Shown here piece after piece: positions 6,229-11,564 of a DNA stretch of 64,000 nt. The stretch is from Chitinophagales bacterium (GTDB lineage: Bacteria; Bacteroidota; Bacteroidia; Chitinophagales; UBA10324). The DNA lies in the NCBI GenBank assembly GCA_019694975.1, contig JAIBAY010000004.1, positions 62,001 to 126,000 of the forward strand, read 5' to 3'. A program made the position numbers and the translations under genes. Every line of letters starts with the position of its first letter. Position 1 is the stretch's first letter. Below the pieces are notes generated by a model. It was given only the letters and a program-made list of their open reading frames with translations, was not told where the DNA came from and did no database searches.

Positions 6229-8343
6229 TCATTTTATTTCATTCATCACCTTGGTCGCTTCCGACAGATAAAGGTCCTTCCGCAGGTTTTTAAGAAACTG
6301 ATCGTTGCGTGCCATCGCCGTACTGTCCGCATTTATTTTTGACAGGTCGGCCGCGAGATTGGAAACGGAAACGAGCATGGAGTCAGCATCAATGGCATCA
6401 TACTTCTTTTCCTTCGCATCCAGCTCGCTTTGTTGTGCGCTGAATTTTTTATAGTTGAGCGAATACACGGAGTGGTCTTTCCGGTACTTGTAATCGACAG
6501 CCTCTTCTTCTATTAATTGGAAAAGCGGATTGCCGGCCATGCGTTGCTGGCTGTTCTTTTTCAGGGTTGCCAGATCATAAGTGGTATTCCACGACTGGTA
6601 TTTCGCCGGTGCGATCTCATCCCATCCGATGGCATACGGATCTTCTTTTTCTCCATTGGTGATCTGTGAGTACGGATCAGGAACTATGATATCCGGTGTA
6701 ACACCTTTCAGCTGCGTAGTGCCGCCGTTAATGCGATAAAATTTCTGAATGGTGATTTTTAATGAACCCAGTTTCGGAGCATCGTTACCTTCTGATGCCA
6801 CAAAATCATCGAGGTTGAAAAAATTCTGAACGGTTCCTTTTCCGTAGGTGCTGCTGCTGCCGATTACCACAGCGCGGTGATAATCCTGCATGGCTGCCGC
6901 AACAATTTCAGAAGCGGAAGCGCTGTAATAATTCACCATGATGGTGAGCGGCCCGCTGTAGGTCACAGCAGGATCCGTGTCGTATAAGACATTTGGTTTT
7001 GAACCACGTGGACGAACCTGAACGATGGGGCCGCCGGGAATAAACAAGCCGCCGAGCTTAACTGCCTCCTGCAACGAGCCGCCGCCATTATCACGCAGGT
7101 CGAGTATAACGCCCGTTACATTTTCGGCTTTCAGCTTCTCCAGTTCCGCCTGCACATCACCTGCACAGCTCCTGCCGCCCTTCTGATCAAAGTCGGCGTA
7201 GAACTCCGGCAGGCGGATATAACCTATTTTTTTACCGCCTGAATTGATGATAGCGGATTTTGCATAGGTAGCTTCCAGTACCACGATATCGCGAACGATG
7301 GGAATAATCACCAGCGATCCGTCGGGCTTGCGTACCGTGAGTCTTACTTCGGTTCCTTTCTTGCCGCGGATCAGCTGAATGGCTTTGTCAAGCCGCATCC
7401 CTTCAATGCTCACCGGTTCGGCGGCTCCCTGCCCTACACTGAGTATCACATCATTGGCTTTCAGCTGCCCTTGCCGCCAGGAGGCACTGCCGGCAACAAT
7501 GCTGGCAACACGGATCTCGCCGTCTCTTTGTTGTAACTGCGCACCAATTCCCTCCAGCTGTCCGGTCATCTGAATATCGAAGTTTTGCTTTTGCACCGGC
7601 GGAAAATATTCCGTGTGCGGATCTTCGATGTTGGAAATGGTATTGATATAAACAGCCAGCCAGTCGCTGCGCTCCAGCTCATCAAGGCGATCAAAGAAAT
7701 CCTTGTTGTTCTTCTGCACTTTTGAACGTGCTTCTTTTTCAAGAACGTCAAACGGTTTGATCTTCACCGTATCCGATTTTTCATGCGCCTTTTTTTGTTG
7801 CTGTTCGGAAGTCCGCAACTGCTGTAATACCTGCAGCTTCATGTACTTCCGCCACTGTTCGCGTAAGGCATTGGTATCGGCTGCGAAAGCAAGTTTATCT
7901 CCATCGGTCTCTATGCTTTCATCGATACTGAAATCGATAGGACTGTTCAGCGGTTCAATACTGTACCGGCGTGCCTGTTCCACCCGTTGGTCGTAGATCT
8001 TCATCACGGCATCAAAAAAAACATAGGCACTGTCTTTCAGTTCGTCGTCTATACTGGTTTTATAGGCTGCCAGCTGATCCACATCACCCTGCGTGAAAAT
8101 TTTTTTGTTGTAATCCACCCGCTCCATAAACTCTTTGAAAATCTTCTGTGAGAAAGCATCATCAACCGGTTGGGGTGAATAATGAACAGCATTTATTCCG
8201 CCCATCACCAGCCCGAGCAATTCTTTATTGTCGCCCTGCGGTAGTCTGAAGAAACCGAAAGAGAGACATACGGCACTGATGATAACGGCGGCGGCTGAAA
8301 AAGCAAGCAATACAGGTTTCACCCTGATGAAATACTTCGACAT
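6229..8343 (-). CDS. prc: Carboxy-terminal processing (tail-specific) protease, S41
   Basis: A 704-residue periplasmic serine protease of the Tsp/Prc type. After a membrane anchor (residues 10-30) comes an N-terminal helical domain, a PDZ domain (IGAQLQQRDGEIRVASIVAG, about 265-345) and the S41 catalytic domain with the nucleophile Ser in YYSASASEIVAA and the general-base Lys in TYGKGTVQ. The C-terminal part matches the long extension of full-size Prc proteins. The start at 8343 puts the anchor at the N-terminus; an upstream Met at 8412 would add 23 unlikely residues. It degrades or trims proteins with nonpolar C-termini and often influences murein hydrolases. Confidence 0.9.
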   Translation of the reverse strand: MSKYFIRVKPVLLAFSAAAVIISAVCLSFGFFRLPQGDNKELLGLVMGGINAVHYSPQPVDDAFSQKIFKEFMERVDYNKKIFTQGDVDQLAAYKTSIDDELKDSAYVFFDAVMKIYDQRVEQARRYSIEPLNSPIDFSIDESIETDGDKLAFAADTNALREQWRKYMKLQVLQQLRTSEQQQKKAHEKSDTVKIKPFDVLEKEARSKVQKNNKDFFDRLDELERSDWLAVYINTISNIEDPHTEYFPPVQKQNFDIQMTGQLEGIGAQLQQRDGEIRVASIVAGSASWRQGQLKANDVILSVGQGAAEPVSIEGMRLDKAIQLIRGKKGTEVRLTVRKPDGSLVIIPIVRDIVVLEATYAKSAIINSGGKKIGYIRLPEFYADFDQKGGRSCAGDVQAELEKLKAENVTGVILDLRDNGGGSLQEAVKLGGLFIPGGPIVQVRPRGSKPNVLYDTDPAVTYSGPLTIMVNYYSASASEIVAAAMQDYHRAVVIGSSSTYGKGTVQNFFNLDDFVASEGNDAPKLGSLKITIQKFYRINGGTTQLKGVTPDIIVPDPYSQITNGEKEDPYAIGWDEIAPAKYQSWNTTYDLATLKKNSQQRMAGNPLFQLIEEEAVDYKYRKDHSVYSLNYKKFSAQQSELDAKEKKYDAIDADSMLVSVSNLAADLSKINADSTAMARNDQFLKNLRKDLYLSEATKVMNEIK

Positions 8344-8659
8344 ATTGTACAATTTGAATTTTGCAAAAATACACAATGACGGCCAACCAATATGACCTGT
8401 CCTGTTTATCATCGTATATCATGCCAGGATCCAATTGATTTTTAGTTGCACCATTTCATGTAATACAAAACCACGGAAGTCTACAACCAAATCAGGATAT
8501 CTGTGGATTGATATAGACAGTAAATAAACGCACACGATGAATTGTACATAAGCACATCAATGCAGAGCGGATGCACAGCAGTTCATGATGAAACATCACT
8601 CAAGTTTCACATACTTAAGGAATGTTGATGGAGAAACAGGAGAATATACAGTAAGTATT

Positions 8660-8704
8660 AAAACGAAGAAAGCGGAATCAATCTGTTCGATTAATTCCGC
8701 TTTC
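8660..8704 (-). terminator. Intrinsic terminator of the small RNA gene
   Basis: On the minus strand a stem of 7 uninterrupted base pairs (GCGGAAT/ATTCCGC), extended by AAT/ATT after one mismatch and by AAA/TTT at the base, is followed by TTTCTTCGTTTT. It ends the candidate RNA described at 8665-8833 and separates it from the prc gene start 320 bp further on. Confidence 0.65.
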
Positions 8705-8833
8705 GCAGCCTAAGCAACCGTAGCTCCCTATGCTGCCCTGACCTTCGAACCCGTGCCTCACCTTGCGATGCTGCTTCTTCTTTTCTTTCGATCGGAAGGC
8801 CGTCTATTGCTAAACGACCGGATGTTTTAATCA
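8665..8833 (-). ncRNA. Candidate structured small RNA of unknown family
   Basis: No protein gene fits 8413-9044, but the minus strand carries a promoter at 8840-8872, about 170 nt of stem-loop-rich sequence and a terminator. A 5' hairpin pairs GUCGUUU with AGACGGC around AGCAAU (8798-8817). Downstream, GCAGC (8769-8773) can pair with GCUGC (8704-8708) and GCAA with UUGC, closing a long irregular domain that contains GGUCAGGGC. GGUCAGG is also found in the bacterial signal recognition particle RNA, but the matching GGAA loop and AGCAGCC segment are not evident, so I do not call it SRP RNA. The start is estimated from the promoter. Confidence 0.5.
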
Positions 8834-8839
8834 GTGAAC

Positions 8840-8872
8840 CAAACATACATCACGCACTGTACGCTTTGCAAA
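8840..8872 (-). promoter_or_regulatory. Bacteroidota-type promoter for the small RNA
   Basis: Read on the minus strand, TTTG (8872-8869) is followed after 21 nt by TATGTTTG (8847-8840), an exact match to the TANNTTTG -7 element with its -33 partner. Transcription would begin about 6-8 nt downstream and run into the structured RNA. Confidence 0.6.
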
Positions 8873-9044
8873 TTTTCCGGCCTGATATTGTACACAAAAT
8901 CTCCACACCGGTTATGCACAACTGTTGAAAAGCATGCTTGCTCACATTGAGTTGATGATATCCTGAACCGGCGATGTGATCATTATCAAAAGTCTGTATG
9001 GCAAATGAAGTGGTCATTCACCACCGGTTGTCCTAACCTTATCA

Positions 9045-11564
9045 TCAGCTGTTTTGGTACCGGTTAAAAAACCAGACTTTTAATAAATCCGCGGTAATGA
9101 CGTAGGCCACTACAATGGCGGCAATTGCTCCGAGGAAAGGAAGCGGTAAAGGGATAAGGCCGGCTTCCGAAGCGAATGGAAGGTAAGGAAAGACAATGGT
9201 GAGTGCAAGCGCTGTTACACTGAGCAACAGCAATGACCTCGCAGGCCTGCTTTTAAAGAAATTTTTTTGTGTGCGGATAATAAAAAGGATGAGCAATTCC
9301 GTAAGGACAGATTCAATGAACCAGCCCGTTTGAAATGCGGATTCTTTCACCCGTAAAACATAGTATAAAACCAGGAAAGTGATCACATCAAATACAGAAC
9401 TCTGAATACCGAAAACAAGCATGTAGGTCCGAATCATCCTCAAATTCCATTTCCCCGGTTTTTTTAACTGATCATCATCTACATTATCAGATGCCACCGC
9501 CAGGTATGGAAAATCAGTCATGAAATTGGTCAGCAGGATTTGTTTCGGAAGCATCGGCAAAAAGGGAAGGATAAGTGATGCGGCTGCTACACTGCACATG
9601 TTGCCGAACGTGGAACCTGTGCTGATATAAAGGTATTTTAAGGTGTTCGCAAATGTTTTTCTTCCTTCAGTAATACCATCCACCAATACTGATAAATCTT
9701 TTTCCATCAGCACAATATCGGCGGCCTCCTTTGCCACATCAGCAGCATTGTCAACAGAGATACCGATATCCGCGGCATTAATCGCTGACACATCATTGAT
9801 TCCATCGCCCATATAGGCGACGGTATAAGATTTCCTCAATGCTTGAATAATACGCTCTTTCTGCTGTGGTTCCACCTCCGCAAAAAGGTGTGTCCTCTTC
9901 GCCAGCTGAACAAGCGCTTCAGAGCTGGTATTAATAAGCTCTTCGCCCGTCATGATTACCGGATCGGGAATGCCGATTTGCATGGCAATTGACTTCGCTA
10001 CATTCTTATTGTCTCCGGTAATTATCTTAAGGCCAATATGTAATGTCTGCAGTGATTCAATAGTTTCCGCAATAGCCTGTTTAACCGGATCCTGTAATAA
10101 AATGAATCCGGCAAAAACCAGGTCTCTCTCATCTTCTTTTGTGATGTTGTCTGTGGTGATCAGTTTGTAAGCAATGCCGATGGCACGCAGGCCGTTTGCG
10201 CTATATTCCTCAAAGAGCATATTCAGTGCATCGATGTGCTCATGGAGAGGCGTGATGACGTTGCCCGGCAATCTGACGGCGGTGCAGATGCCGGCTATTT
10301 CCCTGAAGGCGCCCTTACTGATGAGCAGCTTCTCATCGGCTGTTTTTACGGCAATGCTCAGGCGCTTTCGGATAAAATCATAGGGCACTTCACTGAGTTT
10401 CAGTGGCGGTGATCCTGCTGCATGGCTAAGTTGTTTCAGCGCATCATCAATCGGGTTGGCATAACCTGCCTGCAGGCTGGCGTTCCATACTGCAAGTTGT
10501 TCAACGAACTCATCGTGACTTCCGCCGCCATTTACCAGGCCGTGTACCCTGATGATGCCTTCCGTTATAGTACCGGTTTTGTCGGTGCAGAGTAAGTTTA
10601 CTTCTCCGAGGTTTTGAATGGAGGTGAGTTTTCTTACGATTACTTTTTTCTGAAGGATTCGTTTGGCGCCTGCACTCATGGCGATGGTGGTGATAGCGGG
10701 CAGTAATTCGGGAGCCATTCCCACCGCCAGCGCGAGGGCGAAAAGCGCCGATTCCATGACGCTCTTATGATTGAGCAGGTTAACAAGGAGGATAAAGATG
10801 GAGAGCACCAGTGTAATCTTCATCAGGAAAAAACCGAAGTCCCTGATGCCCTTTTCGAAGGTTGTTTCCACCGTAGCGGAAGCACTTTGTACAATGGTTC
10901 CAAACAGGGAGTTGTTGCCTGTTTGAATCGCCAGCGCTTTGGCATTGCCGCTTACGATACTCGACCCTTCCCAAAGACAGTTTGTTCTTTTTGGCAGTTC
11001 CGTCTGTTCAGGTAATGTGCCGGCCTGCTTTCTTACAGGAAAGGATTCGCCTGTAAGGCTCGATTCATTGGCATGCAGTTCATTCGATTCCAGAATCAGG
11101 CAATCCGCGGGTATGATATCACCGGCATTAAATACGAGAACATCGCCGGGCACCACCGCCACGGAGTCAATTTCCTGCTCTATTCCGTCACGTATCACGT
11201 TGCAGCGCAGCGAAATCATCGACTGCAGTTTCTCCACCACCCTGCCGGCATTGCGTTCCTGAAAAAAACTGAGCAACCCTGATGACAGGATGATGAAGAG
11301 AATAATGACAACATCGGAAGGATCGCCGAGGAATGCAGATAGAACAACAGCACCAATCAGGAGCAGCATGAGCGGGCTCTTGAATTGTGCGATGAATAGT
11401 TTGGTTTCTTTACTGAAAACAGATTGTGCTCTCTTTTGTCTGCCGGTCTTCGCATGGATCTGTGCAGCCGCTTGTTCACTGAGGCCGCATGCGCCACTGT
11501 TTAATTTTTTTAACCAGTAGTCTGTATTATACTGCCAGAAATAATTCGGGGAGGCTGTTGGCAT
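9045..11564 (-). CDS. mgtA: Magnesium-translocating P-type ATPase
   Basis: An 839-residue P3B-type ATPase that imports Mg2+ across the inner membrane at the cost of ATP. Visible hallmarks are the actuator loop LTGESFPV, the phosphorylated Asp in LLCTDKTGTIT, TGDNKNVA and the hinge GDGINDVSA. An N-terminal cation-ATPase domain and ten predicted helices are consistent with MgtA/MgtB. The length is slightly below the enterobacterial protein. The gene stands alone; no Mg2+-responsive leader was recognised in the 190 bp upstream. Low-Mg2+ induction would be the family norm but is not shown here. Confidence 0.9.
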   Translation of the reverse strand: MPTASPNYFWQYNTDYWLKKLNSGACGLSEQAAAQIHAKTGRQKRAQSVFSKETKLFIAQFKSPLMLLLIGAVVLSAFLGDPSDVVIILFIILSSGLLSFFQERNAGRVVEKLQSMISLRCNVIRDGIEQEIDSVAVVPGDVLVFNAGDIIPADCLILESNELHANESSLTGESFPVRKQAGTLPEQTELPKRTNCLWEGSSIVSGNAKALAIQTGNNSLFGTIVQSASATVETTFEKGIRDFGFFLMKITLVLSIFILLVNLLNHKSVMESALFALALAVGMAPELLPAITTIAMSAGAKRILQKKVIVRKLTSIQNLGEVNLLCTDKTGTITEGIIRVHGLVNGGGSHDEFVEQLAVWNASLQAGYANPIDDALKQLSHAAGSPPLKLSEVPYDFIRKRLSIAVKTADEKLLISKGAFREIAGICTAVRLPGNVITPLHEHIDALNMLFEEYSANGLRAIGIAYKLITTDNITKEDERDLVFAGFILLQDPVKQAIAETIESLQTLHIGLKIITGDNKNVAKSIAMQIGIPDPVIMTGEELINTSSEALVQLAKRTHLFAEVEPQQKERIIQALRKSYTVAYMGDGINDVSAINAADIGISVDNAADVAKEAADIVLMEKDLSVLVDGITEGRKTFANTLKYLYISTGSTFGNMCSVAAASLILPFLPMLPKQILLTNFMTDFPYLAVASDNVDDDQLKKPGKWNLRMIRTYMLVFGIQSSVFDVITFLVLYYVLRVKESAFQTGWFIESVLTELLILFIIRTQKNFFKSRPARSLLLLSVTALALTIVFPYLPFASEAGLIPLPLPFLGAIAAIVVAYVITADLLKVWFFNRYQNS

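Follow-up and report, generated by a model that had tools for sequence, protein, structure and literature searches.

A free-standing structured RNA gene in Bacteroidia with an upstream row of DnaA-like boxes and a possible link to the replication cycle

What is encoded in a gap between two protein genes that carries its own promoter and terminator, and has a similar arrangement been retained in other bacteria? This question is raised by a locus in a genome of the order Chitinophagales, which was studied here within a stretch of 64,000 nucleotides, hereafter the window, to which coordinates refer unless a contig is named. The original prediction placed a small RNA gene in a gap of about 630 bp devoid of protein genes; the distance between the flanking minus-strand ORFs (6229-8412 and 9045-11564) is 632 bp. 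The promoter TTTG-N21-TATGTTTG was found exactly as predicted on the minus strand, with the -33 element at 8869-8872 and the -7 element at 8840-8847, the latter matching a published motif (PMC9723704) and occupying the same position in nine aligned homologues. Since the TAnnTTTG box covers positions -12 to -5 in a flavobacterium with mapped starts (PMC9723704), the transcription start was predicted at A 8835, directly preceding the first paired base of helix P1. The anticipated intrinsic terminator is likewise present as hairpin P7 (8668-8704, minus strand), a 16-bp stem followed by TTCGTTTT at 8667-8660, where 0.5 terminator-type sites were expected by chance in the region. From the position of the -7 box, the homologues and covariation, the predicted transcript is about 176 nt long (8660-8835, minus strand) and ends in the U-rich tract near 8660. 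Its stable folding was also borne out, with -71.8 kcal/mol against -47.3 kcal/mol in dinucleotide shuffles (z -5.7; 0 of 200 shuffles as stable). As judged from sequence, the segment is very probably a free-standing gene of a structured RNA, with a housekeeping-type promoter of the Bacteroidota kind and an intrinsic terminator, belonging to no Rfam family.

The predicted fold consists, in order, of P1, an internal loop (AAAAC on one side, UUCGAA on the other), P2, a multiloop with three GNRA hairpins, P6 and P7, all on the minus strand. P1 is formed by CUGAUU (8829-8834) and GGUCAG (8738-8743), with 100% of alignment cells paired and two pairs changed on both sides, and P2 by AUCCG (8819-8823) and CGGGU (8749-8753), as placed by the covariation alignment. 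Among the multiloop hairpins, P3 (8799-8818, GCAA loop) is the weakest covarying helix with 70% of cells paired, while P4 (8777-8798, GAAA loop) and P5 (8755-8774, GCAA loop) come from the fold only. P6 (8705-8736) is backed by covariation and capped by C(UACG)G, a loop found also in L063, L064, L113 and L149, and as UUACGG in L141. The covariation analysis suggested by the original prediction was performed for the core on an alignment of five near relatives in which structure was ignored; 20 of 49 pairs were changed on both sides (0/500 shuffles), with 91.8% of cells paired versus 35-50% when the partner strand was slid. In the 3' half, 17 of 30 pairs were changed on both sides and 94.1% of cells were paired, a result reached in none of 500 shuffles; counts were thus made on few sequences, five for the core and eight for the 3' half. 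These alignments show that helices of the fold are kept by compensatory changes in relatives. The AAAAC/UUCGAA internal loop is conserved in near relatives, and in farther ones the multiloop gains hairpins and the RNA becomes longer.

Two identities had been put forward, a divergent SRP RNA or an undescribed RNA. Comparison with the Rfam models, also proposed at that time, was performed: no family reached threshold in the window, nothing sensible appeared up to E 10 around the RNA gene and the homologous loci of relatives had no match either. Together with the covarying pairs, this favours the second option. The first was abandoned: the bacterial small SRP RNA model (RF00169) gave no match at E up to 10, and the canonical SRP RNA of this genome is located elsewhere (G000:C5:246273-246366, 45.9 bits). 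The resemblance to 4.5S RNA consists of a free-standing gene and the string GGUCAGG, which is indeed present; however, it is the 3' strand of P1 (8738-8743) rather than an SRP feature, GGUCAG varies to GAUCAG, AAUCAG and GGUCGG in relatives, and the RNA has neither the GGAA loop nor the AGCAGCC strand. No tRNA or tmRNA was found by ARAGORN in the window locus (L002) or its relatives L003-L006. The Flavo-1 and Bacteroidales-1 motifs (Rfam, PMC2864571) are likewise candidate structured RNAs of Bacteroidota, but match neither the window nor the relatives. In the literature, we found no description of a matching RNA, nor of a DnaA-regulated small RNA in the phylum.

When the DNA of 60 relatives was searched, other genera yielded four homologues, 74-76% identical, and further ones were recovered with covariance models. 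Neighbouring genes and their orientation vary among the homologues, which indicates that the RNA gene stands alone. Searches failed to detect the RNA in some near relatives, among them the six mostly near-complete genomes of genus g6, where loss or divergence may be the cause, and two incomplete genomes from the genus of the window; it should be added that many genomes searched were drafts or metagenome-assembled. A pattern scan of genome contigs returned 11 stretches, three of them (L048, L049 and L051) in genomes already matched. A fourth, L041, scores identically to L034 and has its element, and the rest can be put down to chance or to 3' terminators. R2 matches such as L036, L066, L068, L071, L073, L076 and L077 and the R1 match L037 look like the 3' termini of protein genes in which a comparable terminator hairpin occurs, and L067 was likewise rejected. 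Scans of viral contigs gave no match.

The interval originally delimited ends just before the most conserved upstream part of the locus, a row of boxes at 8888-8931. Four DnaA-like 9-mers are found there: TTGTACACA (8888-8896), a weak ATCTCCACA (8899-8907) and TTATGCACA (8912-8920) on the plus strand, and TTTTCAACA (8923-8931) in the opposite orientation on the minus strand, lying about -48, -59, -72 and -83 from the -7 box with a fixed spacing of 11, 13 and 11 bp. In 9 of 11 homologues, four 9-mers of the form WTWTNCACA occupy these positions, that at about -83 in one orientation and the other three mostly in the other. The box score was reached by at most 4 of 500 shuffles in 9 of the 11 homologues (1/500 for the window locus); in L064 it was not above chance. 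These comparisons of sequence show a conserved row of four DnaA-like boxes upstream of the predicted promoter, and boxes at conserved positions are what a DnaA-controlled unit should have.

The array and promoter of nine Chitinophagales loci were used to build a sequence-only model, R3, which was searched over 396 genomes of the order and 395 genomes of the class, its E-values being rough. R3 recovered the window (9.4e-20) and, independently of the RNA models, which match weakly there, re-found L035 on the correct strand (1.4e-5); its promoter was placed nearer to the boxes than the point used for box scoring. New loci in the order were identified in G019 (2.2e-11, with three perfect TGTGGATAA boxes) and G384 (4.4e-9), followed by G198, G035, G240, G248 and G292, and the best outside the order were in G430 (2.7e-9) and G440 (4.7e-9). 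The array-promoter arrangement was thereby located in further families of the order and of the class. Most of the R3 loci inspected by eye have a structured RNA-like stretch downstream, with a terminator at its end. Matches L142 and L150 were false, being followed by a protein gene and by tRNAs, respectively, as were several produced by intergenic CACAGATTTTACGCAGATT-type repeats of G261 (L185, L188), which mimic the box array.

In around 15 R3-matched loci, AAGNRAGRGA begins 2-4 nt downstream of the predicted start and usually runs on into UAAAAGGC; this motif is rare elsewhere in the loci (22 matches in total in 296 kb, both strands). Many of the RNAs behind the array have AAGYGAGGGAUAAAAGGC as their 5' end at the predicted start, are closed by a P1 helix and finish in a hairpin and terminator. 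The 3' part of such RNAs contains (A)AACAGUARCUUGG/A ahead of the last hairpins, so that P1 would be CCAAG/CUUGG or a covarying version of it. By lineage, P1 reads CCAAG/CUUGG, UGUCAAG/CUUGACA, CCAAAC/GUUUGG or AGCAGUU/AACUGC. In a duplex-energy cross-test of P1, many single loci did not separate clearly, in part since P1 has identical letters in many lineages. L113 and L063 possess both the 5' motif and the UACG hairpin, and thereby link the AAGNRAGRGA form to the compact form seen in the window. Loci of family f20 (L114-L119 and L126-L131) have a distinct 3' hairpin, AAAGCAUCGGGUUAGUAA...GAUGCUUU, and a conserved internal GGGUUAGUAA. In G081 the RNA gene is duplicated in tandem (L123, G081:C4, 1501-2251 and on), each copy with its own array and promoter.

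Which factor would occupy the boxes? A second R3 match was located upstream of mraZ in G054 and G066; mraZ is the first gene of the division cluster. Across 27 relatives, exact TTATNCACA occurred 11 times in 9.45 kb before mraZ versus 2 times in the other 69.8 kb of these loci, the reversed control occurring 3 times. One TTATCCACA lies 89 bp before mraZ in the genome studied here. Loci with TTATNCACA upstream of mraZ are L223 (G000:C2, about 767,584-767,680), L196, L199, L200, L202, L203, L205, L206, L216 and L222, and AAAGTGG-type repeats beside the mraZ boxes resemble MraZ sites. Coupling of replication to division through the mraZ boxes is possible in the order. From the enrichment of TTATNCACA before mraZ we infer that DnaA is the favoured factor at the array, and DnaA-type control of the RNA gene appears somewhat better than an even bet on this sequence similarity.

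Taken as a whole, we consider that the locus is a free-standing gene of a structured non-coding RNA whose family is absent from Rfam and spread through Bacteroidia, with DnaA-type control and a role in trans, and assign to this reading a probability of roughly 0.6. In this reading, the row of boxes would be bound by DnaA, or by another factor recognising that site, so that transcription of the RNA would follow the replication cycle; the same probably holds for the division gene mraZ. Of the interpretations considered, the most likely is a new RNA family, spread through Bacteroidia, that acts in trans and is linked to the replication cycle.

A distinctly smaller, if real, chance is given to the same family being under another Bacteroidota regulator that binds the boxes, the RNA answering a different signal. 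The consensus of the boxes drifts towards TTATNAACA in several class-level loci, DnaA was assigned by box similarity, the window has one weak box among its four, and the gene dnaA is distant (C4:291296), 220 kb from the RNA gene. Against another regulator stand the perfect TTATCCACA boxes in L113 and L035 and the enrichment of TTATNCACA before mraZ.

The manner in which the RNA acts is to be sought in its body. Across the loci in which both ends could be placed, predicted RNAs are 113-533 nt long, and most of the RNAs tested are more stably folded than shuffles, in a few cases by a small margin. Their hairpin loops are mostly GNRA, UNCG and CUUG (CGAAAG, CGCAAG, AGCAAU, CUACGG and CUUCGG being common). 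Across the class, conservation lies mainly in the ends and the architecture, and not in unpaired sequence. The body thus varies freely in length and sequence yet keeps its stable-loop hairpins, for which reason the RNA may work in trans by binding protein, as a scaffold or sponge, rather than by antisense pairing to fixed targets; this proposal, drawn from form, is tentative and weaker than that of DnaA-type control. Sponge RNAs of the CsrB/RsmZ type have a conserved upstream activating region and a variable body of repeated short hairpins. The RNAs described here resemble them in both respects, but differ in the loops: the GGA motifs that are the hallmark of CsrB/RsmZ did not characterise the hairpin loops counted. 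Protein binding is preferred to an antisense mechanism, since outside the base of P1 no unpaired segment of the body is conserved class-wide. It is accordingly rather unlikely that the RNA is a base-pairing regulator of mRNAs acting through an exposed segment, e.g. the purine-rich linker or the AAAAC/UUCGAA internal loop, even though its size and its promoter-terminator layout are typical of such RNAs and that loop is conserved in near relatives.

DnaA-like boxes clustered between two genes might also mark a DNA element, i.e. a replication origin or a DnaA-titrating locus of the datA or DARS kind, transcribed incidentally. We regard this as quite improbable: no GC-skew switch was observed around C4:70 kb, nor at the arrays of the single-contig genomes G198 and G304, the boxes are kept at a fixed distance from the promoter and the RNA has compensatory pairs. 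CcnA of Caulobacter crescentus (PMC8959179) offers a comparison, being a 182-nt non-coding RNA gene with weak DnaA boxes and a role in the cell cycle; CcnA, however, maps to the replication origin and has a CtrA box in its promoter (PMC8959179), whereas GC skew does not place the RNA gene of the window at an origin. Elsewhere in the genome studied here, two opposed TTATCCACA boxes with weaker ones occur in an apparently intergenic segment (G000:C2:510566-510786, L100), a candidate chromosomal origin.

Functional replacement of 6S RNA is very improbable. The gene is similar to 6S RNA and 6S-Flavo in size and in its stand-alone layout, and neither RF00013, which was positive in the controls, nor RF01685 matched in this genome, the latter model being also silent in the control genomes, so that absence of 6S-Flavo is not established. 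Nevertheless, 6S RNA is a single long hairpin with a large central bubble, whereas the RNA of the window is predicted to have a multibranched body with P6 and P7 as two extra hairpins, and it had no Rfam match at E 10. Finally, a cis-regulatory leader of the S41 peptidase gene, whose ORF begins some 250 nt further along the same strand, is hardly credible, as a strong terminator lies in between, the genes found at this place in relatives are different and in part oppositely oriented, and no conserved linkage to one downstream gene was found among the homologues.

Free-standing structured RNAs are a known kind, and the family described here was in none of the libraries searched; beyond the original prediction, the array of DnaA-like boxes and the class-wide spread are new. 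It appears to extend across a class of very common bacteria, and combines an RNA that is hypervariable with an array that is highly conserved. The fixed array proved an efficient search tool, by which relatives missed by sequence and RNA-structure searches were found. If the boxes bind DnaA, the replication initiator would be tied directly to a non-coding RNA, a rare kind of connection that would offer a handle on cell-cycle control in Bacteroidota. More speculatively, the RNA may be a class-wide, DnaA-controlled carrier of replication-cycle information to other cell-cycle processes, such as division, in which the body is free to vary and only the stable hairpins matter.
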